A DNA stretch of 64,000 bases from Microtetraspora glauca (GTDB lineage: Bacteria; Actinomycetota; Actinomycetes; Streptosporangiales; Streptosporangiaceae): NCBI GenBank assembly GCA_001570385.1, contig BBYL01000012.1, positions 124,001 to 188,000 on the forward strand, written 5' to 3'. Both the position numbers and the translations under genes were made by a program. The notes beneath the pieces are model-generated. The model worked only from the letters and a program-made list of their open reading frames with translations. It did not search any database and was not told the DNA's origin. Below, piece by piece: positions 12,503 to 33,138 of the stretch; the first letter of the stretch is position 1; each line of letters begins with the position of its first letter.

Positions 12503-12508
12503 AGATTA
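12503..12508 (-). promoter_or_regulatory. -10 box TAATCT for the aldo/keto reductase
   Basis: TAATCT on the minus strand, 9 bases before ATG 12493, implies a leader of at most two or three bases. Confidence 0.35.
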
Positions 12509-12523
12509 GCGCGTCGGACAGTT

Positions 12524-12529
12524 TAGGCT
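12524..12529 (+). promoter_or_regulatory. -10 box TAGGCT, leaderless start of uppP
   Basis: TAGGCT ends 8 bases before GTG 12538. The same hexamer precedes mshC and metH. Confidence 0.5.
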
Positions 12530-12537
12530 GGCCCATC

Positions 12538-14060: not shown

Positions 14061-14063
14061 GGT
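14058..14063 (+). promoter_or_regulatory. -10 box TAAGGT overlapping a stop codon
   Basis: TAAGGT begins with the TAA stop of the upstream phosphatase gene and ends 6 bases before ATG 14070, so the DUF3090 gene can be transcribed separately and without a leader. Confidence 0.45.
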
Positions 14064-14069
14064 CGGGTT

Positions 14070-14636
14070 ATGCCGGTCTTCGACTACGATCCGCCTGACA
14101 GGTTCGTGGCCGGTGCCGTCGGGCAACCGGGAGCACGGGCCTTCTTCCTGCAGGCCCGTGGCCAGGGCAGGGTCACCACCGTCGCGCTCGAGAAGTTCCA
14201 GGTCGCCGTGCTCGCCGACCGGCTCGACGAGCTGCTCGACGAGGTGCTGCGCCGTACCGGCGGCCGTGCCCCCGTCCCGGCCGCGGCCCCGGTCGAACTC
14301 GCCGACGACGCCCCGCTCGACCTGCCGATCGACGAGGACTTCCGGGTCGGCACCATGGCGCTCGCATGGGATCCCGAGACCTCCCAGGTGATCATCGAGG
14401 CGCAGGAGGCCACGGAGGCCGAGGCCGAGGACGAGGTGTTCGACACCGACGAGCCCGAGCCCGCCGTCCTGCGGGTGCGGATCAGTCCCGCGGCGGCCCG
14501 CGCCTTCAGCCGCCGGGCACTCGACCTCGTCGCCGCCGGCCGCCCGCCGTGCCCGCTGTGCGGGCAGCCCCTGGAGCCCGAGGGGCACATCTGCGTCCGT
14601 CTCAACGGTCACCACCCCGGGGGAATGTCGGCGTGA
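14070..14636 (+). CDS. DUF3090 family protein with C-terminal zinc-ribbon-like motif
   Basis: 188-residue actinobacterial protein matching DUF3090. The N-terminal domain (VFDYDPPDRFVAGAVGQPGARAFF and LEKFQVAVLADRLDELLDEV) is followed by an acidic linker and ends with CPLCGQPLEPEGHICVRLNG, where CxxC plus H-x-C could bind zinc. Function is unknown. The fixed order phosphatase, DUF3090, SCO1664 and mshC suggests a shared but undefined role. Confidence 0.85.
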   Translation: MPVFDYDPPDRFVAGAVGQPGARAFFLQARGQGRVTTVALEKFQVAVLADRLDELLDEVLRRTGGRAPVPAAAPVELADDAPLDLPIDEDFRVGTMALAWDPETSQVIIEAQEATEAEAEDEVFDTDEPEPAVLRVRISPAAARAFSRRALDLVAAGRPPCPLCGQPLEPEGHICVRLNGHHPGGMSA

Positions 14637-17710: not shown

Positions 17711-19033
17711 GTGCGTGTTCGATTCCGCCGATGGGCCGGCACCGCCGCCGGTGCGACGCTAATGGGGCTGATCCTCATCGCGTGCACGCTGGGAAACGGC
17801 ACGTCCAGCCGGGCGGTCTCCACGACGGAGGTCACCGCCACCGAGGCGGCGACGACCGCGTCCACGTGGCCGGTCTTCGGGTTCACGCACACGCAGTACA
17901 CCGTGGACTACGGTCGGCAGCAGGCGCTCAGGACGGTGCACAACGCGATCGCCGAGAAGCGCGTCCTGCAGAACCAGCACATCATGGGGTTCGGCGCGCT
18001 CAACCCCGAGCCCAGTCCGGGCAAGTACGACTTCGCCAGCCTGGACGACCGGATGGAGCTGATCCGTAAGACCCGCGGCATCCCCGTCATCACGCTGTGC
18101 TGCGCGCCCGACTGGATGAAGGGCGGCTCGCCGGGCGAGACCGACTGGAACCGGATCGAGGCGGCGCCGCTCCCCGGTCACTACCAGGACTTCGCCGACC
18201 TGGCGGCCAAGGTCGCCAGGAGATACCCGGACGTCACCCACTTCATCGTGTGGAACGAGCTCAAGGGTTTCTTCGACGAGGACAAGCATCGGTGGAACTA
18301 CGAGGGTTACACCGACATGTACAACCGGGTCTACAAAGCGCTGAAGGACGTCAATCCGAAGATCGAGGTCGGCGGTCCCTATCCCGCGCTCGGCGGCTTC
18401 GACGCGCCGTCGGAGTTGCACGGCGACTGGGGCAACGTGGACCAGCGGGTGCTCGACGCCCTGCGTTACTGGATCAGGCACAACAAGGGCGCGGACTTCA
18501 TCGTCGTCGACGGGACGTCCGAGAGCGACAAGGGGCTGGTCCCCGACGAGTTCGGCGCGCTGAAGAAGTTCTCCGCCGTCAACGGGTGGCTGCGCCGGCA
18601 CACCGACCTGCCGATCTGGTGGGCGGAGTGGTACGCCGAGCCGGCCGACTCGGGCTGGCCGGAGAACAAGCGGCTCGCCGTGCACGCCGCCGCGATGATG
18701 GAGTTCGCCCGCAGCCGGACGGCCGCCGCCCTCTACTGGAGCCGCCAGGAGGAGGGCGAGGAGTGCCCTGAGGGCTGTCTGTGGACGAGTCCGCGCGCGG
18801 GTGGGGGCGGAAAGCCCACCGCGCTGCTCCGCCTCCTGCAGGAATTCGCCCGATCGTTCCCGCAGGGCACCAAGACGGTGCCGGTCGACGTCGCGCCCTC
18901 GTCCGTACTGGCGCTCGCCCAGCGGGCGCGGATCGTCGTGGTGAACACACAGGACAAAGCGGTCAAAGCCACGGTCGACGGAAAAGAGGTCGATCTGTCG
19001 CCTTATGAGGTGCGCTGGATTTCCCGCGTGTGA
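17711..19033 (+). CDS. GH39-type glycosidase, lipoprotein
   Basis: 440-residue exported glycoside hydrolase-like protein. The signal peptide ends in a lipobox LIAC, so Cys25 should be lipidated and the protein tethered outside the membrane. The rest is a (beta/alpha)8 barrel of GH39/clan-A type: FIVWNELKGF gives the acid/base E183 and WWAEWYAEP the nucleophile E306, with TLCCAPDWMKGG and GGPYPALGG as further landmarks. PslG, a GH39 protein of the Psl exopolysaccharide system, is a functional analogue by position in a glycan locus. GTG 17711 has GGGGAG 6 bases upstream. A paralogue lies at 25.5 kb. The substrate is unknown. Confidence 0.8.
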   Translation: MRVRFRRWAGTAAGATLMGLILIACTLGNGTSSRAVSTTEVTATEAATTASTWPVFGFTHTQYTVDYGRQQALRTVHNAIAEKRVLQNQHIMGFGALNPEPSPGKYDFASLDDRMELIRKTRGIPVITLCCAPDWMKGGSPGETDWNRIEAAPLPGHYQDFADLAAKVARRYPDVTHFIVWNELKGFFDEDKHRWNYEGYTDMYNRVYKALKDVNPKIEVGGPYPALGGFDAPSELHGDWGNVDQRVLDALRYWIRHNKGADFIVVDGTSESDKGLVPDEFGALKKFSAVNGWLRRHTDLPIWWAEWYAEPADSGWPENKRLAVHAAAMMEFARSRTAAALYWSRQEEGEECPEGCLWTSPRAGGGGKPTALLRLLQEFARSFPQGTKTVPVDVAPSSVLALAQRARIVVVNTQDKAVKATVDGKEVDLSPYEVRWISRV

Positions 19034-19046
19034 TAACCCGCTCAGG

Positions 19047-19052
19047 TAGCAT
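19047..19052 (+). promoter_or_regulatory. -10 box TAGCAT, leaderless start of GT2 gene 1
   Basis: TAGCAT ends 8 bases before ATG 19061 and lies in the 27-base gap after the GH39 gene. Confidence 0.45.
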
Positions 19053-19060
19053 TTTTCAGC

Positions 19061-19996
19061 ATGAGCGACCACAATTGGCCTTCCGTTGCGGCCGTCATCA
19101 CCACTCGCGGTGACCGCGCCGACTTTCTCCGGGAGGCGATCGAATCGATCGTCGCCCAGGACTATCCGGGTCGAATCAATGTAATGGTGGTATTCGACCG
19201 CGCCGAGCCCGACGAGAGTCTCACCGAGCTGGGAGACGGGCCGATGCGCGAGGTGCGCGTCATGCTCAGCGACCGGCCTCCCGGCTCCTCCGCGAGCAGG
19301 AACGCCGGGATCCTCGCCACCGAGTCCGACCTGGTCGGGTTCTGCGACGACGACGACTCCTGGTTGCCCGGCAAGCTCAGGAGCCAGGTCACCGCCCTGC
19401 GGTCGCGGCCCCGCGCGTTGTTCGCCTCCTGCGGGGCGATCACGACGTACGACGGATGGTCCGCGGAGTGCATGTGGTCCAAGCCGCAGATCGCGCACGC
19501 CGACCTGCTCGTCTCCCGGGTGAAGGAGGCGAACACCGACTCCTTCCTCGCCTACCGCAGCGCGCTGCTCGGCCCGATCGGGCTGTTCTCCGAGGAGATC
19601 CCCGGCGGGTTCGCCGAGGACTACGAGATGCTGCTGCGCGCCGCGCGGCACTCGCCCATCGTCTACGCGCACGAGGTGGGGGTCCGGGTCCGCGGTCACG
19701 GCCGGACGTCGCACTTCACCGGGAACTGGGAGACCATCGCGTCGGCGAACGAGTGGCTGCTCGACGCCTACCCCGAGTTCAGGTCGGAGCGCCGCGGGTT
19801 CGCGCGCATCGCGGGCCAGATCAGCCTCGCCTGGGGCATGCTCGGCCGGCGCGGCACCGCCATGCGCTGGGCCGTGCGCGCCTTCCTCGCCAGCCCGCTG
19901 GAGATCCGGTCGTACGTCGTGACGGCGCTGGCGATGCGCGCCGTGAGCAGGTCGTGGGTCCAGCGCCGCCTCGACGCCATCGGGGCCACTTCCTAG
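19061..19996 (+). CDS. Glycosyltransferase family 2, copy 1
   Basis: 311-residue GT-A glycosyltransferase. SVAAVITTRGDRADFLREAIESI is the nucleotide-binding start, LVGFCDDDDSWLPGKL carries the metal-binding DxD, and GGFAEDYEMLLRA the catalytic-base ED motif. There is no membrane helix, so it works on the cytoplasmic side, probably on a lipid-linked glycan. It is closely paralogous to the gene at 20932-21867 and has the same length; about 180 bases near 19200-19380 are almost identical at DNA level. Donor sugar and acceptor are unknown. Confidence 0.85.
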   Translation: MSDHNWPSVAAVITTRGDRADFLREAIESIVAQDYPGRINVMVVFDRAEPDESLTELGDGPMREVRVMLSDRPPGSSASRNAGILATESDLVGFCDDDDSWLPGKLRSQVTALRSRPRALFASCGAITTYDGWSAECMWSKPQIAHADLLVSRVKEANTDSFLAYRSALLGPIGLFSEEIPGGFAEDYEMLLRAARHSPIVYAHEVGVRVRGHGRTSHFTGNWETIASANEWLLDAYPEFRSERRGFARIAGQISLAWGMLGRRGTAMRWAVRAFLASPLEIRSYVVTALAMRAVSRSWVQRRLDAIGATS

Positions 19997-20018
19997 GCGT
20001 ACGCTCCGGAGCGCGTGT

Positions 20019-20798
20019 CTAGATGTGCACGCTGTCGGCGATCCGGGCGATGCCGTCGATCAGCGGCGGTATCGCCCCGATGTGCCCCGCCGTACGGACC
20101 GGCCGGATCCGCCGGGCCATGGTGCGCAGCCACTTCTCCGCCGGGGCGGCGTGCAGCCGGAGCGAGCCGAACCCGTCGCCGATGCAGGCCCTGGTGAAGG
20201 CGTAGGGCCCCTGGTCGCGGTACGGATCCACCGTCACGCAGCCGTAGGTGTAACCGGCGGCCCGGACCGCGTCCAGGACACGGACGTCGGCGGCGCCGTA
20301 CGGATAGCAGATGCCGTCGGCGGGCTGGCCGGTGATGTCCCGCAGGATCTCGCGGCTGCGGGACAGCTCGTCCGCGAGTCCCTGGTCGTCCAGCGTGGTC
20401 AGCGAGGTGTGGGTCAGTCCGTGGGACGCGATCTCCATCCCGGCGTCGGCGGCCTCGCGGAGGTGGTCGGCGCCCATCAGCTCCTTGCGCGGGCCGGGCT
20501 GATCCCATTTGTTGAACTGGCTGAGCAGCCCCGACACGATGTACAGGCTCGCGGTGAAGTCGTACCGCCGGAGGATCGGGAGCGCCTGCTCCATGAAATC
20601 GACGTAACCGTCGTCGAACGTGAGCGCGATCATGCCGCTCGGGTCGTCGGCGGAGAGCAGCTCCCGCATCGTGACACCGCGTTTGTCCTGCTTGTAGATC
20701 CATCTGATCTGCGACTCGAAATTCTCCGGAGTGACAGTCAGGGTGTAGGGATCGTACGTGTAGTGATCGATTGAGTGGTACATCCAGATCGCAGGCAC
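20019..20798 (-). CDS. Polysaccharide deacetylase (NodB domain, CE4)
   Basis: 259-residue carbohydrate esterase 4 protein, expected to remove N-acetyl (or O-acetyl) groups from a glycan. Motif 1 TFDDGY holds the catalytic and metal Asp; motif 2 SHGLTHTSL holds the metal histidines; CYPYGAADVRVLDAVRAAGY fits motif 3. It has no signal peptide, so it either acts in the cytoplasm on a lipid-linked intermediate or is exported unconventionally. GTG 20798 lies 6 bases after TAGACT. It is convergent with GT2 copy 1 and divergent from GT2 copy 2. Confidence 0.87.
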   Translation of the reverse strand: MPAIWMYHSIDHYTYDPYTLTVTPENFESQIRWIYKQDKRGVTMRELLSADDPSGMIALTFDDGYVDFMEQALPILRRYDFTASLYIVSGLLSQFNKWDQPGPRKELMGADHLREAADAGMEIASHGLTHTSLTTLDDQGLADELSRSREILRDITGQPADGICYPYGAADVRVLDAVRAAGYTYGCVTVDPYRDQGPYAFTRACIGDGFGSLRLHAAPAEKWLRTMARRIRPVRTAGHIGAIPPLIDGIARIADSVHI

Positions 20799-20804
20799 GC
20801 AAGA

Positions 20805-20810
20805 AGTCTA
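20805..20810 (-). promoter_or_regulatory. -10 box TAGACT, leaderless start of the deacetylase
   Basis: TAGACT on the minus strand ends 6 bases before GTG 20798. Confidence 0.45.
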
Positions 20811-20918
20811 GAGAATTCATTTACTCGGCCTTCGAGTTCGTGATCGCATCGTGACCAGGATGCTTCGCGGCGAAAGCCGCACGTTCCCGCAAACCCCATG
20901 AATAACAGATCGCGCTGC

Positions 20919-20924
20919 TACGAT
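20919..20924 (+). promoter_or_regulatory. -10 box TACGAT, leaderless start of GT2 gene 2
   Basis: TACGAT ends 7 bases before ATG 20932, with no ribosome site between. Confidence 0.45.
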
Positions 20925-20931
20925 CACGGTC

Positions 20932-21867
20932 ATGAGCGAACAGCGCCTGCCTTCGGTGGCGGCTGTCATCTGCACTCGAGGGGACCGCGCCGAGCTCCTG
21001 CGGGAGGCGGTGGACTCGATCGTTCATCAGGATTACGCGGGCCCGATCACCATCATGGTGGTGTTCGACCGCGCCGTGCCCGACGAGAGTCTCACCGAGC
21101 TGGGAGACGGGCCGACGCGCGAGGTGCGCGTCATGCTCAGCGACCGGCCCGCAGGCTCCTCGGCCTGCAGGAACGCCGGGATCCTCGCCACCGAGTCCGA
21201 CCTGGTCGGGTTCTGCGACGACGACGACTCCTGGTTGCCCGGCAAGCTGACCGCGCAGGTGGCCGAGCTCGTACGGCGTCCCGAGGCGGGGTCCGTGGCC
21301 TGCGGCGCCGTCACGATCCACGACGGCTGGACCTCCGAGTGCGTCTGGGACAAGCCGGAGATCACGTTCTCCGACCTGCTGCGCTCCCGGGTGAAGGAGG
21401 CCTCGCCCTCCTCGTTCGTGGTCCGCCGTGAGCTGCTGCTCGGCTCCGTGGGGATGTTCTCCGAGGAGATCCCCGGCGGGTTCGCGGAGGACTACGAGAT
21501 CCTGCTGCGCATGGCGGGGCATTCCCCCGTGGTGTACGTGCGCCAGGTCGGGGTGCAGGTCCGGGTGCAGGGGCGCACCTCGCACTTCACCGGCAACTGG
21601 GCGGTCATCGCCGAGGCGCTGGAGTGGCTGCTCGCCGAGTATCCCGCGTTCTCCGGGGTTCGCCGCGGGTATGCCAGGCTGGCCGGGCAGATCGCCCTGT
21701 CCAAGGGGATGCTGGGCGAGCGGAGGGAGTCGCTGCGCTGGGCCTCCCGGGCGTTTCGCGCCAGCCCGCTCGAGATCCGCTCCTACGTGGTCGCGGCGAT
21801 GGCCCTGCACGCGGTCAGCCGGTCCTGGGTGCTCGCGCGGCTCGCCGCCGCCGGCGCCACCAGCTGA
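20932..21867 (+). CDS. Glycosyltransferase family 2, copy 2
   Basis: 311 residues, with the same architecture as copy 1 at 19061: SVAAVICTRGDRAELL at the start, FCDDDDSWLPGKL and GGFAEDYEILLRM. The two proteins differ mainly in residues about 115-165, between the DDDD motif and the ED motif, where the acceptor site of GT2 enzymes usually lies, so they may use different acceptors in one pathway. The near-identical DNA around 21080-21260 points to duplication followed by gene conversion. The gene is leaderless, transcribed divergently from the deacetylase. Confidence 0.85.
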   Translation: MSEQRLPSVAAVICTRGDRAELLREAVDSIVHQDYAGPITIMVVFDRAVPDESLTELGDGPTREVRVMLSDRPAGSSACRNAGILATESDLVGFCDDDDSWLPGKLTAQVAELVRRPEAGSVACGAVTIHDGWTSECVWDKPEITFSDLLRSRVKEASPSSFVVRRELLLGSVGMFSEEIPGGFAEDYEILLRMAGHSPVVYVRQVGVQVRVQGRTSHFTGNWAVIAEALEWLLAEYPAFSGVRRGYARLAGQIALSKGMLGERRESLRWASRAFRASPLEIRSYVVAAMALHAVSRSWVLARLAAAGATS

Positions 21868-21891
21868 ACCGGCGTCATCCCGTTCTCCCGC

Positions 21892-23019
21892 TCATCCCGC
21901 CGACTCCGTCGGGCCGCCCTCGCCGCGCGGCTGCGCCGCGGTCTTCCCGCGCAGGTTCCCGTAACGTCGAAGCACCCGGTCCGCGATGCCGTACAGGCGG
22001 GGCCGGTCCAGGATGTACTGCTTCGCGCCGCGCACCGGTGAGTTCCTGACCCAGTGCAACGCGGCGCCCGCCGAGCGGCGGCGGACGCACCCCTCGCCCA
22101 CCATGTGGCCGCTCGTCCGCAGGTTCTGTTTGTAGTCGTCGCCCTTGCTGACGCTCCAGTCCATCTGGGTGATCCCGTCCTGCGCCGCGGCCTTGGCCAT
22201 CAGCAGGTGCTGGACGAGCCCGGGGGAGTACTTGGAGTACTCGGCGTCGTACGCGGGGAACCAGCCGGCGAGGAGCGGGCCCGAGCGCAGGCCGATGTGC
22301 CCGGCGATCGGCGCGTCCCCGGCGTACAGCATGGTCAGCAGCCCGGCGCAGCCCGGCGCCCGGCTGGCGTGCAGCCGCTCGACCAGCTCCACCACCCACG
22401 GCTGCCCGAACCGGTCCTGACGGCCGATCCGGCGGTACTGGCTCGACTTCCACCGCATCAGCGTGCGCAGGTCGCCGATGTCGGCGCTGTGCAGTTCCAC
22501 CCGCAGTGGCCCGACGTCGCGGCCGAGCTTGCGCTCGCGGTAGAGGCCCATCTTCAGCGTGCGGGGGGCGTTGGCCTTCACCTTCGCGAGGTAGTCGTCG
22601 TAGCCGCCGCCCACGTCGATGAGCACCGACTCCGCCTCGACGGTCGCGAACGGGGCGAACCAGGGCTGCCCGCCGACCAGGAACTCGAACTCCCAGACGT
22701 TCAACCGGGAGCCGCGGAGCAGCGCCGCCGGGTCGAAGCCCGCCCCGGGCCGGTGGACGACCCCCTGCGCCAGCGAGACCCAGCCGGCGATCGGCCTGCC
22801 CACCCCGAGCGGGTGCCGTTCGAAGGGGAAGAAGCCGACGGTCTCGTTCCCCTCGGTGAGCACCGCGACGAACGCGTCGTCCCGCACCTCGCCGACGGCC
22901 ATGGTGAATTCCGGGGACAGAAACGGGCTGGCCAAATGAGGTTGGGAGTCCTGCATCGACCGCCATTCCGCCTGTTCGCCGGGGCCGAGCTCATGGGGGC
23001 GGATGACCGAGATCTGCAT
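21892..23019 (-). CDS. CelD/BcsL-type GNAT acyltransferase, copy 1
   Basis: 375-residue protein of the CelD/BcsL GNAT superfamily, associated with polysaccharide synthesis in many bacteria. It has an N-terminal degenerate GNAT half (FLSPEFTMAVGEV... GFFPFERH), a central helical part (WKSSQYRRIGRQDRFGQ) and the C-terminal GNAT fold (AGWFPAYDAEYSKYSPG, then MDWSVSKGDDYKQNLRT). Such proteins are thought to acylate sugars or aminoacylate like the related FemAB proteins. ATG 23019 has AAAGGAT upstream. It is divergent from the P450 gene, whose other side carries a second CelD-like gene. Confidence 0.8.
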   Translation of the reverse strand: MQISVIRPHELGPGEQAEWRSMQDSQPHLASPFLSPEFTMAVGEVRDDAFVAVLTEGNETVGFFPFERHPLGVGRPIAGWVSLAQGVVHRPGAGFDPAALLRGSRLNVWEFEFLVGGQPWFAPFATVEAESVLIDVGGGYDDYLAKVKANAPRTLKMGLYRERKLGRDVGPLRVELHSADIGDLRTLMRWKSSQYRRIGRQDRFGQPWVVELVERLHASRAPGCAGLLTMLYAGDAPIAGHIGLRSGPLLAGWFPAYDAEYSKYSPGLVQHLLMAKAAAQDGITQMDWSVSKGDDYKQNLRTSGHMVGEGCVRRRSAGAALHWVRNSPVRGAKQYILDRPRLYGIADRVLRRYGNLRGKTAAQPRGEGGPTESAG

Positions 23020-23072
23020 GAGATCCTTTCGCGGCGGGGGGAATGCCCATTGTAGGGCGACAGAATGCCGCG

Positions 23073-24335
23073 ATGTGGGATCCTTTGGGAGTGAAGCTCA
23101 TCGCTGATCTCGACATCGCGAAGCTGGACTTCTGGGAGCGGCCCGTCTCCGAGCGGCACGAGGCTTTCGCGTGGCTCAGGGAGCAGGAGCGTCCTTTGTT
23201 CTTCGCCCAGCCCAAGGTTCCCTTGGCGCGCGCGGGCAAGGGTTTCCACGCACTGGTACGCCACGCGGACGTGACCGAGGCGAGCAGGAACGGCGCGGTA
23301 TTCGCCAACAGTCCAGCGGTTACTAATCCAGAACCACCCAAATGGGTGAAATACATCTATGGCGACTCCTTGGAGAACAAGGACGCGCCCGAACACACCC
23401 GGTTGCGGCGCATCGTCTCCAGGGCTTTCGCCCCCCGGATGATGGCGCGGCTGGAAGAGCACATGCGGCGCCGCGCGGAGGAGGCCGTGTCGGCCCTCGC
23501 CGCCGCCGGTCCCGGCGACTTCGTCGAGCTGGTCACGCAGACGTACACCACCCATGTCGTCTGCGACCTGCTGGGCATCCCGGACGCCGACCGCCCGCAG
23601 GTCCTGCGCTGGGTACGCGACACGGTGGAGTACCAGGCGGTACGCAGCGACCCCAAGGGCATGCTGCGGCATGCGGCGAAGAACACCAGGGCCACCTTCG
23701 GCCTGCGCAACCTGGTGATCCGGTTGGGCAGGGAGCGCAGGAAGGAGCCCGGCGACGACGTCATCTCGGCCCTGGCGTGCGCCGACGTCGAGGGCGAGCG
23801 GCTGACCGGCATGGAGCTGGGCGCGTTCTTCCTGCTTCTCGTGGTGGCCGGCATCGACACCCCCGGGCACACCATGTCGCACGCCCTCGCGCTGCTCAGC
23901 GAGCATCCCGACCAGCGCGAGCTGCTGCTCTCGGACTACGACAGGTACATGCCGGGCGCCGTGGACGAGATCGTGCGGTACGCCTCGCCCATCACGCAGC
24001 TCCAGCGGACCGTCACCGCGGAGTACGAGCTGCGCGGGCAGCGGCTGGCGCCCGGAGACAAGGTGGTGCTCTTCTACAACTCGGCGAACAGGGACGAGCG
24101 GGTCTTCACCGACCCCGACGTCTTCGACATCTCGCGGGGCCCCAACCCGCACGTCGCCTTCGGCGGTCCGGGCGCCCACTACTGCCTGGGCGCCCATCTG
24201 GCCAAGCGCGAGCTGACCGTGCTCTTCCAGGAACTGTTCACCCGCCTGCCGGACGTCCGGCTCGCCGCGCCCCCCGAGCCCATGGTGTCCACGTTCAACA
24301 ACGCGATCAGGCGGCTGCCCGTCACGTTTTCGTGA
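23073..24335 (+). CDS. Cytochrome P450, CYP124-like
   Basis: About 420-residue soluble P450. The heme motif FGGPGAHYCLGAHLAK is complete, with EIVRYASP (ExxR) and an I-helix AGIDTPGHT that has Asp-Thr in place of the usual Glu/Asp-Thr-Thr. From memory the whole sequence resembles mycobacterial CYP124 (lipid omega-hydroxylase), e.g. EIVRWASP, LWYCSANRDE-like and GIKTLPVTWS-like segments. Redox partners are not encoded nearby. ATG 23073 begins MWDPLGVKL; ATG 23043 ten codons upstream is possible and neither has a clear ribosome site. Its last 14 bases overlap the 3' end of the convergent CelD-like gene. A P450 inside a glycan locus is unusual. Confidence 0.88.
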   Translation: MWDPLGVKLIADLDIAKLDFWERPVSERHEAFAWLREQERPLFFAQPKVPLARAGKGFHALVRHADVTEASRNGAVFANSPAVTNPEPPKWVKYIYGDSLENKDAPEHTRLRRIVSRAFAPRMMARLEEHMRRRAEEAVSALAAAGPGDFVELVTQTYTTHVVCDLLGIPDADRPQVLRWVRDTVEYQAVRSDPKGMLRHAAKNTRATFGLRNLVIRLGRERRKEPGDDVISALACADVEGERLTGMELGAFFLLLVVAGIDTPGHTMSHALALLSEHPDQRELLLSDYDRYMPGAVDEIVRYASPITQLQRTVTAEYELRGQRLAPGDKVVLFYNSANRDERVFTDPDVFDISRGPNPHVAFGGPGAHYCLGAHLAKRELTVLFQELFTRLPDVRLAAPPEPMVSTFNNAIRRLPVTFS

Positions 24336-25398
24336 GCCGCGCGTAGCCCTTGAGCACGCGGTCCGCCTTGTCGCGCAGGAAGGGGTTGGCCAGCACCGTG
24401 TTGCGGAGCGTCCGTACGGGCGTGCTGGCCAGCCAGTGCAGGCCCGCGGCCGGTGAGAGGCGGGCCACCCGGCCCTCGGCCACCTCCAGGTCGTGGGTCT
24501 TGAGCTTCTCCTTGTAGTCCTTCTCGCCCCGGCCCATGTCGATCAGCGTCAGCCCCGTCGCGGCGAAGTCCCTGGCGATGTCCAGGTGCATGACCATGCC
24601 GGGGGAGTACCGCGCGTACTCCACGTCGTAGGTGGGGAACCACATGCACAGCCGGCTCCCCGTGCGCACGCCGAAGTGACCGGCGATCAACCGCTCCCCG
24701 GCGTACAGCAGGGACAGGCTGCCGGCGAACCGGTCGGTGCGGATCGCGTGCAGCCGCTCCACGAGCTCGACGATCCACGGATGCGCGAACCGGTCCATGC
24801 GGCCGGTGCGGCGGTACTGGGCCGACTTCCAGGCGAGCAGTTCGCGCAGCGCCGCGACGTCGGAGGACTCGGCGACGTGCCGGACCTCGCCCACCTCCCG
24901 GCCGAGCCGTCCCCGCTGGTAGCGCGTCATCTTGTGCGTCTTGGGGGAGCGCCGCCGCAGCGTGGCGAGGTAGGCGTCGAATCCGTCGCCGATGTCGATG
25001 GCGGGCGAGGGGAAGCGGGCGGCGTGATGGGGGACGAACATCGGCTGCCCGACGTGGAGGTGGTCGAACTCCCAGGTGGCGAGGCCGCTCGCGCGCAGCA
25101 ACCGGGTGGCGTCGATTTCGAGGCCCTGGGCGTACACCATGCCCTGGAGATCGGTGAGGCCCGCGCCAACCGGCCGCCCGATGCCCAGGCGGTGTTTCTC
25201 GAACGGAAAGAATCCCGCGATTCCGGAACCGTCGCTCACGACGGCGACGCGCACGTATGGGCGAAGGCTCCCGACGGTCTGGACGAACTCGGGGGAGAGA
25301 AAGGGATTGTCCTGCTCCGGATCCGCGTCCTGGAACTTTCGCCATCGGTCGAGTTCCGGCTCACCGAGGTCGTTGGGGTGGATCACAGAAATCTGCAC
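24322..25398 (-). CDS. CelD/BcsL-type GNAT acyltransferase, copy 2
   Basis: 358-residue paralogue of the gene at 21892-23019, aligning over its whole length: QISVIHPNDLGEPELDRW against QISVIRPHELGPGEQAEW at the start, WKSAQYRRTGRMDRFA in the middle, and YDVEYARYSPGMVMHL near the end. I chose GTG 25398 because it aligns with copy 1's ATG; the frame continues upstream to 25455 but through non-homologous sequence. The two copies flank the P450 gene as a mirrored pair and probably acylate different positions or sugars of one glycan. Confidence 0.8.
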   Translation of the reverse strand: MQISVIHPNDLGEPELDRWRKFQDADPEQDNPFLSPEFVQTVGSLRPYVRVAVVSDGSGIAGFFPFEKHRLGIGRPVGAGLTDLQGMVYAQGLEIDATRLLRASGLATWEFDHLHVGQPMFVPHHAARFPSPAIDIGDGFDAYLATLRRRSPKTHKMTRYQRGRLGREVGEVRHVAESSDVAALRELLAWKSAQYRRTGRMDRFAHPWIVELVERLHAIRTDRFAGSLSLLYAGERLIAGHFGVRTGSRLCMWFPTYDVEYARYSPGMVMHLDIARDFAATGLTLIDMGRGEKDYKEKLKTHDLEVAEGRVARLSPAAGLHWLASTPVRTLRNTVLANPFLRDKADRVLKGYARLTKT

Positions 25399-25465
25399 CA
25401 CGCCATAATCTCGCTTTAAACCCGATAAGCGACCCCAAACGCCCGCAAGGGCCATCTCGCATCGA

Positions 25466-25471
25466 TATTCT
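25466..25471 (+). promoter_or_regulatory. -10 box TATTCT, leaderless start of GH39 gene 2
   Basis: TATTCT ends 7 bases before GTG 25479. This lets one choose the GTG over the longer open frame that runs back into the divergent acyltransferase gene. Confidence 0.45.
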
Positions 25472-25478
25472 TTCGCGC

Positions 25479-26864
25479 GTGGGACGGCATTCGAGTGGTA
25501 TCGCGCTGCCTCGTTGGCCGCTTGCCCTCGGCCTGATTGTGATCATGGTCGCCGCGATGGCCGCGATTCTGGGAGGAGCCGCCGCCCGGCGCTCCGGCGC
25601 CAAGCCCACGCCGCGCCCGGCCGTGGCGGTGGCGCCGCTGTCCTTCGACCAGGCCCGTACGCCGGAACGATGGCCCCGGTGGGGGATGACGCACACGCAG
25701 TACAGCGTCACCGAGGACGGGCCCGCGGCGGCGGAACGGGCGCGTGAGGCGCTCGGCGCGCGGGCCGTGGTGCAGAACCAGCACATCATGGGGTTCGGGG
25801 CGGGCAATCCGGAGCCGAAGCCGGGAGAGTACGACTTCTCCTCGCTCGACGAGCGGGTCAGGCTCATGGCGGAGACCGGCGCCGCCCCCGTCATCACCCT
25901 CTGCTGCGCACCCGACTGGATGAAGGGCGGGCGTTCCGGCGACACCGACTGGAGCCTGCTGGAGATCGCGCCGCGCCACGAGCACTTCCCCGACTTCGCC
26001 CGGCTCGCCGCCGCCGTGGCCCGGCGCTACCCGAACGTCCGCCACTTCATCGTGTGGAACGAGTTCAAGGGGTTCTGGGACGGCCCGCGCCGGGAGTGGA
26101 ACGCCGCCGCCTACACGGAGCTCTACAACCAGGTGTACGACGCGCTCAAGGCGGTGAACCCGGAGATCAAGGTGGGCGGGCCCTACGTGCCGGTGTCCAG
26201 CCAGGCCGGGGACGCGGCCGCCTCCGAGGTCGCGGGGCCCTGGGGCTCGGTGGACCGCAAGGTGCTGAAGGCCGTGGAGTACTGGCTGCGCCACAAGCGG
26301 GGCGCGGACTTCGTCGTCGTGGACGGCGGGGTGACCTCCGAGGACGGGCGGGCCCGGCCGGACGAGTTCACCGCGCTCGGCAAATTCGGCGCGATGACCA
26401 GGTGGCTGCGCGAGCACTCCGACCTGCCCGTGTGGTGGGCCGAGTTCTATCCCCTGCCCTGCGCCTCTCTGGAGCCCGGCGGCTCGTGCCTGGCCCTCAC
26501 CTGGGACGAGCGGCGCCGTACGGCGGTGACGGCGGCCGCGCTGATCGAGCTGGCGGAAGGCGGCGCGGACACCGCGCTCTACTGGGACACGCACCGGCCG
26601 AAGACCCGGGACTGCCCGCTGTGCCTGTGGTCCGGCGACGACGGCGCGCCCACGGAGTCCCTGGCGCTGCTCCAGGACTTCGCCCGCTGGTTCCCCGAAG
26701 GGACGGAGCCCGTCGCGGTGGACGTCTCCGTCCCCCAGGTGCGCGTGCTCGCGCGGGACGGCCGGATGGTCGTCGTGAACACCACGGACGGCAGGCTCGC
26801 GGCGCGCGTGGACGGCGGCGCCGTGACGCTGGAGCCGTACGAGGTGCGATGGATGGACCGCTGA
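25479..26864 (+). CDS. GH39-type glycosidase, membrane-anchored paralogue
   Basis: 461-residue paralogue of the lipoprotein at 17711. Instead of a lipobox it has an uncleaved N-terminal helix (about residues 15-34), so the catalytic domain is anchored outside the membrane. IVWNEFKGFW gives acid/base E195 and VWWAEFYPL the nucleophile E322; TLCCAPDWMKGG and QNQHIMGFGAGNPEP are shared nearly word for word with copy 1. It has an extra cysteine pair (PCASLEPGGSC) near residue 330. It is convergent with the flippase fusion, with only 3 bases between the stops. The two glycosidases probably trim or release the same polymer at different places. Confidence 0.8.
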   Translation: MGRHSSGIALPRWPLALGLIVIMVAAMAAILGGAAARRSGAKPTPRPAVAVAPLSFDQARTPERWPRWGMTHTQYSVTEDGPAAAERAREALGARAVVQNQHIMGFGAGNPEPKPGEYDFSSLDERVRLMAETGAAPVITLCCAPDWMKGGRSGDTDWSLLEIAPRHEHFPDFARLAAAVARRYPNVRHFIVWNEFKGFWDGPRREWNAAAYTELYNQVYDALKAVNPEIKVGGPYVPVSSQAGDAAASEVAGPWGSVDRKVLKAVEYWLRHKRGADFVVVDGGVTSEDGRARPDEFTALGKFGAMTRWLREHSDLPVWWAEFYPLPCASLEPGGSCLALTWDERRRTAVTAAALIELAEGGADTALYWDTHRPKTRDCPLCLWSGDDGAPTESLALLQDFARWFPEGTEPVAVDVSVPQVRVLARDGRMVVVNTTDGRLAARVDGGAVTLEPYEVRWMDR

Positions 26865-26867
26865 CGG

Positions 26868-29800
26868 TCACAGCCCGAGGCTGACGAAGCGCTCGACCAC
26901 GACGGCCACCGCGATCACCAGCAGGACGACCGAGATCTGGAGGAGCCGGCGGCGGGCCCGCGTCCGGGGCGATCCGGAGAGCCGCATCGTCTCGGCCGCG
27001 ACCAGTGTGCCGATGAACAGGACGGCGGCGGCGACGCCCACCGGTGTCCACGTCGTGACGCCCGGCGGGGTCACGGTGAGGTCGGGCGCGGGCGGCACGG
27101 AGCCCGCCGGCGGGCGGCGCAGCGCGTACACCGCGGCGTCCTCGTCGGAGTACAGCGTGACCAGGTCGGGTGAGGCGGCCATCGCGGCGCGGATCCGGAC
27201 GCCCCAGCCAGGGGCGAACCCGCTGCCGAGCGGGTCGGTGACCTCCATCATGGTCTCCTGGTTACGCGCGGCGAGGAGGAACGAGCCGGGCCCCGTCTCG
27301 CGCAGCGCCGCCACGATCGGCGCGGTGTCGGACGGATCGACCGGCGCCGAGACGCCCAGCCACTCGATCCGCTCGACGTGCTTCTCCCGCCACGGGATCA
27401 CGCTGTAGGCGAGGTCTCCGGTGACGGTGCCGGGCTTCTCCTCCATGGGGGTCAGCATCAGGACGCGCGCGCTCGGCTTGTCATGGGCGTAGATGTAGTC
27501 GAGCGCCGCGATCTCGCCGGAGGAGACCCGCTCGAACTGCTCGTTGCCGTACTTGGCGACGTAGAAGCCGCCGGCGAGGGCAAGGGCGGTCACGAAGGCG
27601 AGCACCATCGGCAGCCGTGCCCGGAGCCGCACCAGGACGGAGCGGGCGACCTGGCCCTCGCGGACCTCGCGCAGCCGCACGCTGTCCGGCGAGTTGGGGA
27701 AGAACGCGTACGCGGCGAGCAGGCAGGCTCCCGGCAGCATGAAGAAGTAGACACGCAGCCCCATCTCGCCGCCGTAGCTCTGCATGGCCATGGCCGACAC
27801 CGGCATGACCGTCAGCACCAGGGCGACCCGGTCGATCACCTTGCGGCGCAGCCGGCGCAGCAGGCCGATCCCGGCGAGCAGCGCGAGCACCCCGGCGAAG
27901 CCGAGCCGCACCTTCAGGACGACGGAGTGCAGCGGGTCTCCGGTGGAGGCGGCGATCCGGCCGGTGGTGTTCGAGCTCAGGTTGCTCACGAGTGACCCGA
28001 ACGCGCCGAACATGTCCCCCAGATGGCCCGCCCAGTACGGCGTGGCCAGGTAGCTCACCCAGGCGACGGCCAGGGCGCCGACCAGCCAGGGCAGCGTGCC
28101 GAGGGAGCAGCGCCGTACGATCACCAGACCGAGGCAGGCCGAGGCCATCATGAACGGCGTGATCTGGTGGCTGGCGGTGGCGGCGGCGCCCAGCAGGATC
28201 AGCACCAGGAACAGCACGATCCGGGTCATCGAGTCGGCGGGGCGGGACGTGAACTCGCCGGGATCCGCCTCGTCGAGGCGGCGGACCAGGCGGCCGAGCA
28301 GGCTCCTCGGCGCACTGCCGGTGTCGGCGCGTTCCTCGCGGCCGAACCAGGTGAGCAGGATCGCCAGGAACAGCAGGTACATGAGGTACGTGGTGCCCTG
28401 CGGGGAGAAGTAGTCCTGGCCGATCCACTGGAGGGTGACGAACAGGATCGCGGCCAGCCACTTCGCCCGCCGGTCGGCCCGCATCCTGCGCAGGATCAGC
28501 AGGAGAGGGATGAGGTAGAGGACGTTCGAGGCGACGGGGTACCAGTTCATGAACTGGCGGAGGTCGTCCATGCCGAGCGCGCTGCCGACGAAGGCGAACA
28601 GCGTGAAGAACCCGGGCCAGCTGAAGCGGGCGTCCAGCCCGGGAAGGGTCTCCCCGCTCCTGCCGATGAACTCCACGAACCCGGCGTGCAGCCACGCCGT
28701 CGGAAAGCGGGGCTCCGGGGAGACGAGCGCCGAGGCGCCGTGCAGGCAGAAGGCGATGGCGAAGAGCTGCAGGAGCAGCAGGACCGGACGGTAACGACGC
28801 TGCGAGAGCGTCACGAAGAACGACGCGACCAGCAGCGCCAGGCCGCCGAGCGCCGCGGGGGGGAGCACGGAGATCAGGCCGAGGCCGTTCATCCGGTCGA
28901 GATCGACGCCCGTCAGCCGGCTCGGCGGGGCGACCATCGCGAACACGAAGATCGCGAACCCCTCCACCGCCAGCACCGGCAGCACCCACCGCCTCGCCCG
29001 CTCGGGCCAGCCGGACGGCGCGCCGTCCGAAGAGGTCGCCCGCACGGGCGCGAGGAGGTTGCTGACGCGGTCGCCGATCGTGGTCACGAAGACCATCATG
29101 CGGGAGACGGGGTCCGTCGCGGCGCGCCCCGGAACGATCAGCGCGCGCAGGAGCGAGGGCGCGATGGCGGTCGCCACCGCGAGCTGGGCGACGAGGACGG
29201 CCACGCCGACGCCGTCGATCCCGAGCCGGGGCAGCAGCAGGAAGGTGCCGCTGAACGCGAGGGCGCACATCGCGCCCTGCACGACGGCGAGGGTCCTGAC
29301 GCGGCTGCGCGCCCGGAGGACGCCGATGTAGATCTCGATCACGGCCCGGGGCAGCGCGGCCAGCGCGATGAGCCGCAGCAGGCCGGTGGCGTGCTCCGCG
29401 TGCCCCGGCCCGAAGACCGCCATGATGTACGGCGCCAGCACGACGGTGGCGAGCACGGCCGGGCCGAGGACCATGAACGCGCGGGCGAGGGCGCGGCGGC
29501 CGTGCTGGGCGAGCATGGCCGTGTCGAAGACACTCTCCACGGTCAGCGAGGCGGCCATCGTGAAGGCCAGCATCTCCAGGATGCCGCCCAGCATCCCGGT
29601 GCTGTAGTAGTAGTTGTACGTCGTCGCGTCGACATGGACGCCCACGATCACGGGCAGCAGGTACGTGACCGCGAGGATGAACGTGGAGCCCAGATAGTCG
29701 CCCGCGAGGAAGCGGCCGACCGCGCGCACCGTGGGCGGTGTCCGGTCCGCGGTGTCGCGCGCGTGCCTCGGGACGAGCCTGCGGAACATCAGCAGGTTGA

Positions 29801-30449
29801 CCGGCAGCACGGAGATCGCGACCGCGACCACCCAGGACACCGTGATCCCCTGCCGGGGCAGGATCCAGGACAGCGCGACCAGCAGCACGATCTTGACCAG
29901 GCTGGACCCGATCGTGCTGAAGGGGACCCAGGTGGCCTTCCGCAAGCCGGTCAGGGCGACGTCCTGGAGGGTGAAGACCACCCAGACGAGGACCGCGCCC
30001 GCGAACAGCGCCCCCGGGCCGAACCCGGCCAGGTCGCGGTAGTTGTCCCCCCACCGGTCCAGGGTGAACAGGAACACCACGGTCGCCAGGCCGGCCGCGG
30101 CGAGGGAGACCAGGTAGACCGAGCGGATGAACCGGCCGGTAGCGCGGCCGGTGTCCGGGACGAACCGCGTCAGGGTGCCGACGAAGCCGAACGACGTGAT
30201 CGCCGCGAGGAGGCGCATCGCCCCGATCACCGCCATCGCGCGGCCGCCGTTCGCGGTGTCGTACAAGCGGGCCGCGAGCACCCAGTAGACCAGGCCGAGC
30301 GCGCCGGATCCGGCCGCGCTCACCATGAGCGCGTACGCGTTGCGCAGGAGGGGGTCGCGCAGGCCGAGGGTGAAGCGTCCGCGGGGCGTGCGCCCCGGAT
30401 CCTCCCGCGTCACGTCGTCGGGCGTCGTGCGGGGGAGGATCTCAGTCAC
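26868..30449 (-). CDS. Wzx-like flippase fused to a large polytopic GT-C/polymerase-like domain
   Basis: 1193-residue membrane protein with two parts. Residues about 35-445 look like a polysaccharide flippase of the MVF/Wzx family: LRNAYALMVSAAGSGALGLVY at the start, then about 12 helices, including AVIEIYIGVLRARSRVR, typical of lipid-linked glycan exporters. A charged linker (about 446-487) leads to residues 488-1193, which hold many more helices, long outside loops and a soluble region (about 965-1125), then two final helices. This half resembles GT-C glycosyltransferases or Wzy-like polymerases by topology only; I see no certain catalytic motif. One polypeptide may therefore both flip and extend or ligate the glycan. 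Confidence 0.7.
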   Translation of the reverse strand: MTEILPRTTPDDVTREDPGRTPRGRFTLGLRDPLLRNAYALMVSAAGSGALGLVYWVLAARLYDTANGGRAMAVIGAMRLLAAITSFGFVGTLTRFVPDTGRATGRFIRSVYLVSLAAAGLATVVFLFTLDRWGDNYRDLAGFGPGALFAGAVLVWVVFTLQDVALTGLRKATWVPFSTIGSSLVKIVLLVALSWILPRQGITVSWVVAVAISVLPVNLLMFRRLVPRHARDTADRTPPTVRAVGRFLAGDYLGSTFILAVTYLLPVIVGVHVDATTYNYYYSTGMLGGILEMLAFTMAASLTVESVFDTAMLAQHGRRALARAFMVLGPAVLATVVLAPYIMAVFGPGHAEHATGLLRLIALAALPRAVIEIYIGVLRARSRVRTLAVVQGAMCALAFSGTFLLLPRLGIDGVGVAVLVAQLAVATAIAPSLLRALIVPGRAATDPVSRMMVFVTTIGDRVSNLLAPVRATSSDGAPSGWPERARRWVLPVLAVEGFAIFVFAMVAPPSRLTGVDLDRMNGLGLISVLPPAALGGLALLVASFFVTLSQRRYRPVLLLLQLFAIAFCLHGASALVSPEPRFPTAWLHAGFVEFIGRSGETLPGLDARFSWPGFFTLFAFVGSALGMDDLRQFMNWYPVASNVLYLIPLLLILRRMRADRRAKWLAAILFVTLQWIGQDYFSPQGTTYLMYLLFLAILLTWFGREERADTGSAPRSLLGRLVRRLDEADPGEFTSRPADSMTRIVLFLVLILLGAAATASHQITPFMMASACLGLVIVRRCSLGTLPWLVGALAVAWVSYLATPYWAGHLGDMFGAFGSLVSNLSSNTTGRIAASTGDPLHSVVLKVRLGFAGVLALLAGIGLLRRLRRKVIDRVALVLTVMPVSAMAMQSYGGEMGLRVYFFMLPGACLLAAYAFFPNSPDSVRLREVREGQVARSVLVRLRARLPMVLAFVTALALAGGFYVAKYGNEQFERVSSGEIAALDYIYAHDKPSARVLMLTPMEEKPGTVTGDLAYSVIPWREKHVERIEWLGVSAPVDPSDTAPIVAALRETGPGSFLLAARNQETMMEVTDPLGSGFAPGWGVRIRAAMAASPDLVTLYSDEDAAVYALRRPPAGSVPPAPDLTVTPPGVTTWTPVGVAAAVLFIGTLVAAETMRLSGSPRTRARRRLLQISVVLLVIAVAVVVERFVSLGL

Positions 30450-30603
30450 GGGCTCGCTTCCAGCGGTACAGCGGGCACTCCCACGTCGGGCCGGTCAACG
30501 GGAACGCGTCGTGCCGAGCCGGGCGGCAGGACCCACGTGATTGTCCGGCAGGACACCGCCGCGCCGCAACCGGTACCGCGAAGCGGCGAGACCTCCGGAA
30601 CGA

Positions 30604-31347
30604 TCACGCGGCCCCCTGGTCCGCCGCGGCGGGCGGGGCCTGGGCGGACGTCCGGTCCGGTACGGGCGCCCCGCCGCCGCGCTCGCGCACGATGGTCTTG
30701 AGCACCCGCCATCCGTCCCGGATCGCGCGCAGGTTGCTCGCGCCGTGGATGCGGCTGCGCTCGTGGCTGGGGATCTCGTGCACCCGCAGCCCGGCCTTGG
30801 CGGCGCGGATGTTCATGAGCGTCTCGACCTCGAAACCGTCGCAGTCGAGGCCGAGGGCGTCGAGGTGGCGGGCCCAGAAGGCGTTGTAGCCGTAGCACAG
30901 GTCGGTGTAGCGGGTGCCGTACAGCCGGTTGACCAGGGTGCTGAGCACGAAGTTGCCGAACCGCCTGCAGAGCGTGATGTCGTCGCTCCCGCCGCCGCTG
31001 GCGAACCGCGACCCCTTGGCGTAGTCGGCGCCCGCGACCAGCGCGCCGACGAACCTGATGATCTCCCGCCCGTCGGTGGAGCCGTCCGCGTCGATCATCA
31101 CGATGATGTCGCCCGTGCAGGCGGCGAATCCGGCGGCCAGCGCGTCGCCCTTGCCCTTGCCGCTCTGCTGGACCACCCGCAGGCCGGGCCGCAGCCGCCG
31201 GGCCACCGCGACGGTGTCGTCGGTCGAGTTGCCGTCGACGAGCACGACCTCGCTCACCCAACGGGGAAGGGTCGCGAAGACGTGCGGGAGGTTCTCCGCC
31301 TCGTTGAGAGCGGGCACGACGACGCTCACGCGCGGAGAGATCGCCAT
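30604..31347 (-). CDS. Glycosyltransferase family 2 (DPM1/polyprenyl-phosphate type)
   Basis: 247-residue GT2 enzyme resembling dolichol-phosphate mannose synthases. It begins ISPRVSVVVPALNEAENLP, has VLVDGNSTDDT, then VMIDADGSTDGREI (DAD metal site) and SRIHGASNLRAIRDGWRVL. There is no membrane domain. It probably makes a polyprenyl-phosphate sugar used by the GT-C-like half of the neighbouring fusion, or starts the lipid-linked glycan. I chose ATG 31347. An in-frame ATG at 31443 with GGAGG 11 bases upstream would add 32 residues from AT-rich sequence, including a TTA codon. It lies 154 bases before the flippase gene and in the same direction. Confidence 0.83.
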   Translation of the reverse strand: MAISPRVSVVVPALNEAENLPHVFATLPRWVSEVVLVDGNSTDDTVAVARRLRPGLRVVQQSGKGKGDALAAGFAACTGDIIVMIDADGSTDGREIIRFVGALVAGADYAKGSRFASGGGSDDITLCRRFGNFVLSTLVNRLYGTRYTDLCYGYNAFWARHLDALGLDCDGFEVETLMNIRAAKAGLRVHEIPSHERSRIHGASNLRAIRDGWRVLKTIVRERGGGAPVPDRTSAQAPPAAADQGAA

Positions 31348-31917: not shown

Positions 31918-33138
31918 TCAGCCGGTCACGTCGCGCGGGCCCAGCGCGGGCCCGTGCTCGAACGGCACGGCGGCCCCCATGAAACCGCCCCCGCCGGGTA
32001 GGGCCAGCCGCCGCGGAGGCTGGCGCTCCAGCGGGACCGGCGGCGCCGCCTGAGCCGCCCTGGCGGCCAGCGCCGCCGCCTGGGCGGGGTCCTGGAACCG
32101 GGCGATCCGCCGGACGACCCGGTTGCGCAGTTCCGGCAGATACGCGTAGAGGCTGTCGCCCGGGCACGAGGTGGCGTTGAGGTCGCGGTGCCCGACGATC
32201 GCCACGCTCGGGTCGAGGCCGTAGACGCCGCAGAGCCAGGCCGCGAGACGGGTCAGCGCCACGATCTGCCGATGGAGGGGCAACTCGGTCATGTAGGTGC
32301 CCTCGGTCTCGATGCCGATCGTGTGGCTGTTGTGGTTCGCCGTGTGCGCGCCCACCACGTGTTCCCCGCGCGCGATGGCGGCGAGCGTGCCGTTCCTTCC
32401 CTCCATGACGTAGCCGCCGCGGCTGATCGTGAACTGCTGGCCGATGTCGTCCCAGCCGTTGCGGCCCATGTGGTAGCGCTGGATCGCCTGCGACAGCCGG
32501 AAGGCGGCGTCGATCCCGGTGTCGGCGACGTTGGCCGTCGCCGTGTGGTGGACGACGATCCGGTCCGGCGCGTGGTCGACCACCAGGGCCGGGCGCCGCG
32601 GCGGGCGGGCCTGCCAGTCCTGGCGCGGATGGATGCGCGGCGGGGCGGCGATGACGGTCCCGGTGGTCGACGCCGCTCGCGCCGCCACAGTCGGTGCCGC
32701 GGTCGGGGCCGTCGTGGCCGTCGTCGCCGCGGCAGCGGGGACCGCCGCGGGTGTCGCGGCCTCCGCCGCCGTTCCCGCCGCTGTCGCTCCCGTCGCCCCG
32801 GTGGCGGCGGCTGTGGCTCCCGCCGTGCTGCCCGAAGCCGTGCCCGAAGCCGTGCCCGAAGCCGTGCCCGAAGCCGTGCCCGAAGCCGTGCCCGAGGCGG
32901 TGCCCGACGTCGCGGCGGCGGTCGCGGGCGCGGCCGGAGGCATGACGGCGGGGGGAAGCGGCCGGAGCAGCGCCACGCCCGCGACACCGCCCCCGAGCGC
33001 CAGGAACGCCCGTCGGCTGAGCGCGGCCTCACCATCCGGCGTGAGACCGCGTGTGCGCGCGACCTCGGGCACCGGCCCGAGGTCGCCGGAGTGTGCGGCC
33101 TCATCGTCCGGCGTGAGACCGCGGAAGAACACGGACAT
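31918..33138 (-). CDS. Tat-exported N-acetylmuramoyl-L-alanine amidase (PGRP/Amidase_2)
   Basis: 406-residue peptidoglycan amidase-like protein. Residues about 41-58 (LSRRAFLALGGGVAGVAL) form a twin-arginine signal; before it, RGLTPDDEAA and RGLTPDGEAA are a repeated segment. A Ser/Gly/Thr/Ala linker with six SGTA repeats follows. The catalytic domain starts at IHPRQDWQARPP: VVHHTATAN supplies a zinc His, NSHTIGIETEG the centre, and VGHRDLNATSCPGD the other zinc His and Cys. It would cut the bond between MurNAc and the stem peptide. ATG 33138 has GGGAGG 6 bases upstream. Confidence 0.88.
   Translation of the reverse strand: MSVFFRGLTPDDEAAHSGDLGPVPEVARTRGLTPDGEAALSRRAFLALGGGVAGVALLRPLPPAVMPPAAPATAAATSGTASGTASGTASGTASGTASGTASGSTAGATAAATGATGATAAGTAAEAATPAAVPAAAATTATTAPTAAPTVAARAASTTGTVIAAPPRIHPRQDWQARPPRRPALVVDHAPDRIVVHHTATANVADTGIDAAFRLSQAIQRYHMGRNGWDDIGQQFTISRGGYVMEGRNGTLAAIARGEHVVGAHTANHNSHTIGIETEGTYMTELPLHRQIVALTRLAAWLCGVYGLDPSVAIVGHRDLNATSCPGDSLYAYLPELRNRVVRRIARFQDPAQAAALAARAAQAAPPVPLERQPPRRLALPGGGGFMGAAVPFEHGPALGPRDVTG
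32830..32915 (-). repeat. 12-base tandem repeat in the amidase linker
   Basis: GAAGCCGTGCCC on the plus strand is repeated about six times, encoding the SGTA units. Such repeats readily change copy number. Confidence 0.75.

Follow-up and report, generated by a model that had tools for sequence, protein, structure and literature searches.

Described systems and the locus in Microtetraspora glauca

In the Psl system of Pseudomonas aeruginosa, the GH39-type glycoside hydrolase PslG is encoded together with glycosyltransferases and a flippase. Genes of these kinds also lie together in the soil actinomycete Microtetraspora glauca, at positions 17711-31347 of a stretch of 64,000 nucleotides (positions 124,001 to 188,000 of contig BBYL01000012.1, assembly GCA_001570385.1), which is called the window in the following, and we consider it fairly probable that they encode one system for the assembly of a lipid-linked glycan. 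The locus consists of ten genes in the order GH39a, GT2a, NodB, GT2b, CelDa, P450, CelDb, GH39b, a gene for a fusion protein of 1193 residues and GT2c, GT2 being a glycosyltransferase family; the C-terminal half of the fusion is named FusC, whereas the N-terminal half is Wzx-like. An earlier reading of the window, made from the letters and referred to here as the sequence-only reading, had counted eleven genes, which is one too many. All gene types it listed (two GH39, three GT2, NodB, two CelD/BcsL, P450 and a flippase fusion) are present according to Pfam and, for the flippase half, predicted structure, and no unrelated gene lies between them. Its comparison with Psl holds for the combination of GH39, glycosyltransferases and flippase. 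However, Psl is a weak analogue, since the GH39 proteins of the locus are nearer to beta-xylosidases (2e-10) than to PslG (E 1e-4) by sequence, and the locus has no Wzz-type gene but a GT-C fusion.

When designs are compared, the nearest studied system is the imp cluster of Actinoplanes missouriensis, which is responsible for the matrix polysaccharide of the sporangium and encodes the Wzx-type flippase ImpC, a GT2 enzyme, the GT-C-like (Alg6_Alg8) proposed polymerase ImpE and, adjoining, the matrix hydrolase GimB of family GH5 (PMC12691653). ImpE and FusC are likened here by description only. In contrast to the M. glauca locus, the imp cluster has three GT4 enzymes, encodes ImpC and ImpE separately and in addition ImpD with five transmembrane segments, has GH5 in place of GH39, and no NodB, CelD or P450 protein is listed for it (PMC12691653). 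The wps-3 locus of the same species combines NodB, a BioF2-like acyltransferase, an aminotransferase and Wzx, but has a separate Wzy of the O-antigen-ligase type and Wzz, GT4 instead of GT2 enzymes and no hydrolase listed in the cluster (PMC13390465). The Agl system of Haloferax (AglJ, AglG, Agl15, AglB; PMC3871713) shares with the locus an AglJ-like enzyme for the first sugar, extension on the lipid by glycosyltransferases, a flippase and a transferase of the Stt3 fold. It belongs to another domain of life, FusC lacks the motif WWDxG, and the M. glauca locus adds a deacetylase, acyltransferases and hydrolases. The holdfast (hfs) of Caulobacter has been proposed to involve a pathway shared by HfsH, a deacetylase, and HfsK, a GNAT protein, which resembles the locus in that a NodB-type deacetylase and a GNAT acyltransferase would together modify an exported polysaccharide (PMC5362036). 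The likeness of HfsK to CelDa and CelDb is again one of description only, and Caulobacter belongs to another phylum. To our knowledge, the hfs system contains neither a GT-C fusion nor a GH39 enzyme. No paper on the locus was found in a literature search without most subscription journals, in agreement with the sequence-only reading, which regarded the combination as undescribed.

FusC and GH39 occur in the same genomes

Full relatives of FusC are present in 44 of 151 genomes sampled from the order, strong relatives of GH39b likewise in 44, and the two sets of genomes are identical. The same is true for a class-wide sample of 297 genomes, seven of which are common to both samples: FusC and GH39 each occur in 16, again in the same genomes, and nine of these belong to another family, taken to be Streptomyces. 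In the order sample the two genes are at most 15 kb apart in 39 of the 44 genomes, and Fisher's test for their co-occurrence yields 4e-39, a value that is overstated as related genomes are not independent. The clustering of FusC with GH39 is far beyond chance, and the prediction of the sequence-only reading that the genes form one glycan-assembly system is well supported by this co-occurrence.

Gene content was then counted for the 67 named loci whose flanks are complete; these loci had been found with FusC as search query. Wzx, FusC and GT2c are together in all 67, followed by NodB (63), GH39 (60) and CelD (56), whereas P450 (10) and GT2a/b (6) are rare; all six core families are present in 47. 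The conserved set therefore is GT2c, Wzx, FusC, NodB and CelD plus GH39, so that the genes do travel together in related genomes, as the sequence-only reading had expected, with the exception of the variable P450 and GT2a/b. The closest named loci are those of Microtetraspora fusca and M. malaysiensis, and further hosts include Nonomuraea, Sphaerisporangium, Planobispora, Herbidospora, Actinomadura and Streptomyces. The system hence extends beyond the Streptosporangiales (Streptomyces, Actinomadura and others), and a machine with a reshuffled parts list occurs in many Streptosporangiaceae and Streptomyces. More remote FusC relatives from other families (27-35% identity) have GT2c and/or Wzx nearby in seven of eight loci examined, and therefore the triad of GT2c, Wzx and FusC is wider than its link to GH39.

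A flippase joined to a GT-C-fold transferase

The N-terminal half of the fusion (29100..30449, minus strand) stays below the Pfam cut-off with 23.6 against 28.2 bits, and a sequence search of the PDB revealed no relative. Its AlphaFold2 (AF2) model (pLDDT 86.3) matches WzxE with Z 31.4 (root-mean-square deviation, rmsd, 3.5; 391 aligned residues) and MurJ with Z 30.4, whereas MATE proteins mostly reach 20-25 and at best 28.4. Judged by this model, which has the 12-14 transmembrane segments of the MOP fold, the half is a MOP-superfamily flippase of the WzxE/MurJ fold for lipid-linked glycans, which settles the flippase assignment of the sequence-only reading; the Wzx component of the Wzx/Wzy pathway is thus present.

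FusC (26868..29084, minus strand) had been left unnamed in the sequence-only reading. None of 39 members of its family matches Pfam, and it has no relative in the PDB by sequence. Its AF2 model (pLDDT 84.8, pTM 0.89) matches Stt3 with Z 22.2 (rmsd 5.0, 423 aligned), AglB with 19, ArnT with 17 and AftA with 15.6, and Foldseek matches it to AftA with E 5.5e-7. On the basis of the model, which has a membrane fold and an extracytoplasmic domain as in the GT-C superfamily, FusC is a GT-C-fold membrane glycosyltransferase without a Pfam model. Four acidic residues are conserved among the 39 members, namely position 138 (39/39), D151 (38/39), D224 (39/39) and E440 (39/39), and are candidates for the catalytic acidic residue that GT-C enzymes have in an extracytoplasmic loop. 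Of 80 named loci, 36 have both halves in one reading frame, among them most of those from Streptomyces; elsewhere adjacent genes encode the two halves. A restriction of the fusion to Microtetraspora was considered and rejected, as Streptomyces usually has the fused form. Three distant loci (L163, L164, L168) have two FusC-like proteins, or a small open reading frame (ORF; 135-181 amino acids) beside FusC, which is reminiscent of ImpD/ImpE.

Transferase and hydrolase are exchanged as a pair

Eleven of the 151 order genomes contain a divergent FusC with an N-terminal GT2 domain (30-37% identity over ~400-500 residues), and none of these has a strong GH39 match. Instead, strong relatives of a GH26-like hydrolase occur in exactly these 11 genomes, each with a best E of at most 4e-120, and 2e-75 is the value for the genome that follows. 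In this second locus type the GT2-fused FusC variant lies next to the GH26-like gene (L058 9248-14073, with the GH26-like protein at 12988-14073; also L059-L064 and L071). Both types share GT2c, NodB, CelD and Wzx. Since both occur within the genera g7 and g17, descent alone is insufficient to explain the pattern, and the exact matching of GH39 with FusC and of the GH26-like protein with GT2-fused FusC leads to the conclusion that hydrolase and membrane transferase are exchanged as a pair. Most simply, this would mean that each hydrolase has to suit the linkage which its membrane transferase forms.

Probable initiating and extending glycosyltransferases

The best NCBIfam family of GT2c (30604..31347, minus strand) is AglJ (TIGR04182, E 2e-41), which is found in 11 of 11 family members, and its PDB relatives are dolichyl-phosphate-mannose synthase and ArnC. 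AglJ of Haloferax transfers the first sugar onto dolichol phosphate (PMC3871713), and AepG, an archaeal enzyme similar to dolichyl-phosphate-mannose synthase, makes dolichol-phosphate-glucuronic acid for an exopolysaccharide (PMC9943897). Because GT2c resembles AglJ and dolichyl-phosphate-mannose synthase, and AglJ and AepG load dolichol phosphate, GT2c probably is the initiator and acts on a polyprenyl phosphate. The sequence-only reading had found neither a Wzz/Wzc-type chain-length kinase nor an obvious priming transferase. Indeed, neither PF02397 nor Wzz is present in the locus, but GT2c may fill the priming role found missing.

In the genome, PF02397 and Wzz occur on contigs C11 and C20 only, and the sole PF02397 gene is on C20 together with a Wzz. 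This region of C20 (L162, 58000-77999) carries separate classical exopolysaccharide genes with PF02397 and Wzz as well as a GH26-like protein at 77102; in wps-1 of A. missouriensis a GH26 is likewise paired with Wzx/Wzy/Wzz. PF04932 (Wzy_C) was found neither in the locus nor in the genome, which is a weak negative as Wzy proteins are very diverse; for the same reason, nothing follows from the lack of a structural match between FusC and Wzy. The cytosolic GT-A glycosyltransferase GT2a (19061..19996, plus strand; PF00535) shares 70% identity with its duplicate GT2b (20932..21867, plus strand; Glycos_transf_2), and both are candidates for extension.

Hydrolases and putative glycan-modifying enzymes

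GH39a (17711..19033, plus strand) is an exported hydrolase and, with the lipobox LIAC in its sequence (Cys25), a probable lipoprotein; the lipobox cysteine is kept in L033 and L034. GH39b (25479..26864, plus strand) is exported with an N-terminal membrane anchor, its start being placed at a GTG within an ORF that opens at 25257. With a PF01229 cut-off of 26 bits GH39a scores 32.9 and GH39b 26.1 (25.0 in another scan), and the assignment of GH39b is backed by its co-occurrence with FusC. The catalytic glutamate pair of GH39 (NE and WWxE) is present in both proteins and invariant in 16 aligned sequences. GH39a and GH39b belong to two old clades, the former grouping with G061, Planotetraspora and Herbidospora, the latter being sister to a clade of Nonomuraea, Sphaerisporangium and Streptosporangium.

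The NodB-type deacetylase (20019..20798, minus strand; PF01522, 2e-29), with PgaB among its PDB relatives, has the zinc motifs TFDDG and HxxxH, which are invariant in 14 sequences, and is probably cytosolic as it has no signal peptide. CelDa (21892..23019) and CelDb (24322..25398), both on the minus strand, are CelD/BcsL (BioF2-like GNAT) acyltransferases by PF13480 (5e-33 and 2e-37) and have no PDB relative by sequence; for CelDb a GTG start was chosen by comparison with homologues, and the ORF could begin at 25455. They are predicted to transfer acyl groups to a sugar amine, and deacylation followed by re-acylation of the glycan is plausible. The cytochrome P450 (23043..24335, plus strand; PF00067) is nearest to chains of CYP125, CYP124 and CYP268 in the PDB. 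CYP124 hydroxylates methyl-branched lipids (PMC7589583), and it is a guess that the substrate of the P450 may be the polyprenyl carrier or an acyl chain with a branch.

The P450, present in 10 of the 67 loci, was rejected as an obligate part; it accompanies GH39a and sometimes CelDa, also away from FusC. In L160 (4592-9880, with CelDa nearby) and L161 (6644-9174) it adjoins GH39a remote from FusC, which suggests a separate module. In our reading, two parts make up the M. glauca locus, a core (GT2c, the fusion, CelDb and GH39b) and a module (GH39a, GT2a, P450 and CelDa), which is supported by the joint presence of P450 and GH39a away from FusC in the genomes G094, where CelDa is nearby, and G145.

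A proposed pathway for the glycan and its alternatives

In the pathway that we propose, GT2c would put the first sugar on a polyprenyl monophosphate, like haloarchaeal AglJ, and GT2a and GT2b would extend it at the cytosolic face. NodB would then take off an N-acetyl group, after which the freed amine would receive another acyl group from CelDa, CelDb or both, perhaps a branched chain that the CYP124-like P450 has hydroxylated. The Wzx half would flip the product, and the GT-C half, which is attached to it here and adjacent in other genera, would take the flipped lipid-linked glycan as donor, either polymerising it or attaching it to an outside acceptor. Finally, the membrane-anchored GH39 enzymes would cleave the product at a linkage made by the GT-C half. 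The system would be a variant of lipid-linked glycan assembly that is neither Psl-like nor classical Wzx/Wzy. A more fitting list of its parts is an AglJ-like initiator, a flippase, a GT-C transferase and a hydrolase matched to it, to which deacylation/acylation and, optionally, an oxidation are added.

Several points weigh against this pathway. The strands of the locus alternate, in five of the FusC genomes GH39 is on a different contig or at a distance of more than 15 kb, and the related genomes in the samples make the Fisher value overstate independence. P450, CelDa and GT2a/b are not constant, and the AglJ score of GT2c is 142 bits, which is below the equivalog cut-off of 325. The evidence for the system consists of gene content, co-occurrence, predicted folds and sequence motifs, from which we infer the enzyme substrates, the acceptor, expression and polymerisation. 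Enzymes for protein glycosylation or for the addition of single sugars have GT-C folds as well, and therefore polymerisation is a guess.

An unlikely alternative, although the likeliest of the rivals, is an extracellular modification of the GtrA/ArnT type, in which GT2c makes a polyprenyl-phosphate monosaccharide, the flippase turns it over, FusC adds the single sugar to an existing cell-wall polymer and GH39 remodels this polymer. Such three-part systems occur in Gram-positive bacteria (PMC13390465), and the similarity of GT2c to ArnC and dolichyl-phosphate-mannose synthase as well as the fold matches of FusC to ArnT and AftA would suit them. However, the flippase is of the WzxE- and MurJ-like MOP type and not a small GtrA/ArnEF, the additional GT2 enzymes, NodB and CelD point to an oligosaccharide, and the co-occurrence of GH39 with FusC is absolute in both samples. 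Even less probable is a protein glycosylation as in archaeal Agl systems, with FusC moving the lipid-linked glycan to secreted proteins. Although haloarchaea assemble Agl glycans on dolichol monophosphate (PMC3871713), and an AglJ-like GT2c, a Wzx-like flippase and structural matches led by Stt3 and AglB are all present here, the identity of FusC to Stt3/AglB is only ~10-12%, and the WWDxG motif of Stt3/AglB/PglB is absent as there is no WW pair anywhere in the fusion. Moreover, no linked target protein is seen at the locus, and a dedicated GH39 or GH26-like hydrolase suits a polysaccharide better.

The PF02397 and Wzz genes of contig C20 would suit a classical Wzx/Wzy exopolysaccharide locus with Wzy, Wzz and the priming enzyme elsewhere and FusC as accessory. 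This is very improbable, as C20 appears to be a separate locus and FusC is as constant as Wzx across loci; the absence of PF04932 from the genome also speaks against it, but not strongly, Wzy proteins being too diverse. That there is no single system but a pair of GH39 genes for utilisation with unrelated neighbours, as the alternating strands and the large size of several families (P450, GT2) might suggest, is hardly credible in view of the identical FusC and GH39 genome sets in two samples and the clustering conserved over many genera.

We tentatively go one step beyond the assembly pathway and propose as a possibility, with clearly less confidence than in the pathway itself, that FusC represents a new GT-C family that replaces Wzy, namely a polymerase for polyprenyl-monophosphate glycans that is coupled to its flippase, in many cases covalently, and always comes with a linkage-matched hydrolase.

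Arrangement and surroundings of the locus

The left neighbour of the locus is mshC, which ends at 17561, and the right neighbour is an amidase gene (31918-33138). Pfam matches within the locus are two GH39, three Glycos_transf_2, one Polysacc_deac_1, two Acetyltransf_6 and one p450, and the third-position GC of the genes is of coding type. Four tight convergent pairs result from the alternation of strands (two pairs separated by 22 and 24 bases, one overlapping by 14 and one 3 bases apart), and therefore the locus is not one operon. A gene for a BacA/UppP undecaprenyl-diphosphatase lies at 12493-13356, ~4 kb upstream. At 35423-41699 of the window there is an overlap between a molybdopterin oxidoreductase and a nitrite-reductase-like ORF. 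Since no family matches the initial ~510 residues encoded at 37686-41699 and a longer frame (35539-39129) overlaps, a frameshift or a misplaced start is possible. Loci of the Nonomuraea type (L035, L038, L044 and similar ones) are flanked by genes for a sigma-70-like protein, an SBP/VWA protein, a GntR/aminotransferase protein and a DegT-like protein.

Significance for actinomycete envelope glycans

The locus stands for an envelope glycan system that is widespread in antibiotic-producing actinomycetes and apparently uncharacterised, and a membrane glycosyltransferase family without a Pfam model now has a fold and a set of partners. Due to the strict pairing of transferase type and hydrolase type, purified GH39 and GH26-like enzymes could help to detect both glycans and establish their identity, so that the chemistry is open to direct tests. 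Furthermore, as flippase and transferase are covalently joined, the handover of lipid-linked sugars between them could be studied in this system. If FusC indeed replaces Wzy, this would be a route to surface polysaccharides apart from the Wzx/Wzy, ABC-transporter and synthase routes.

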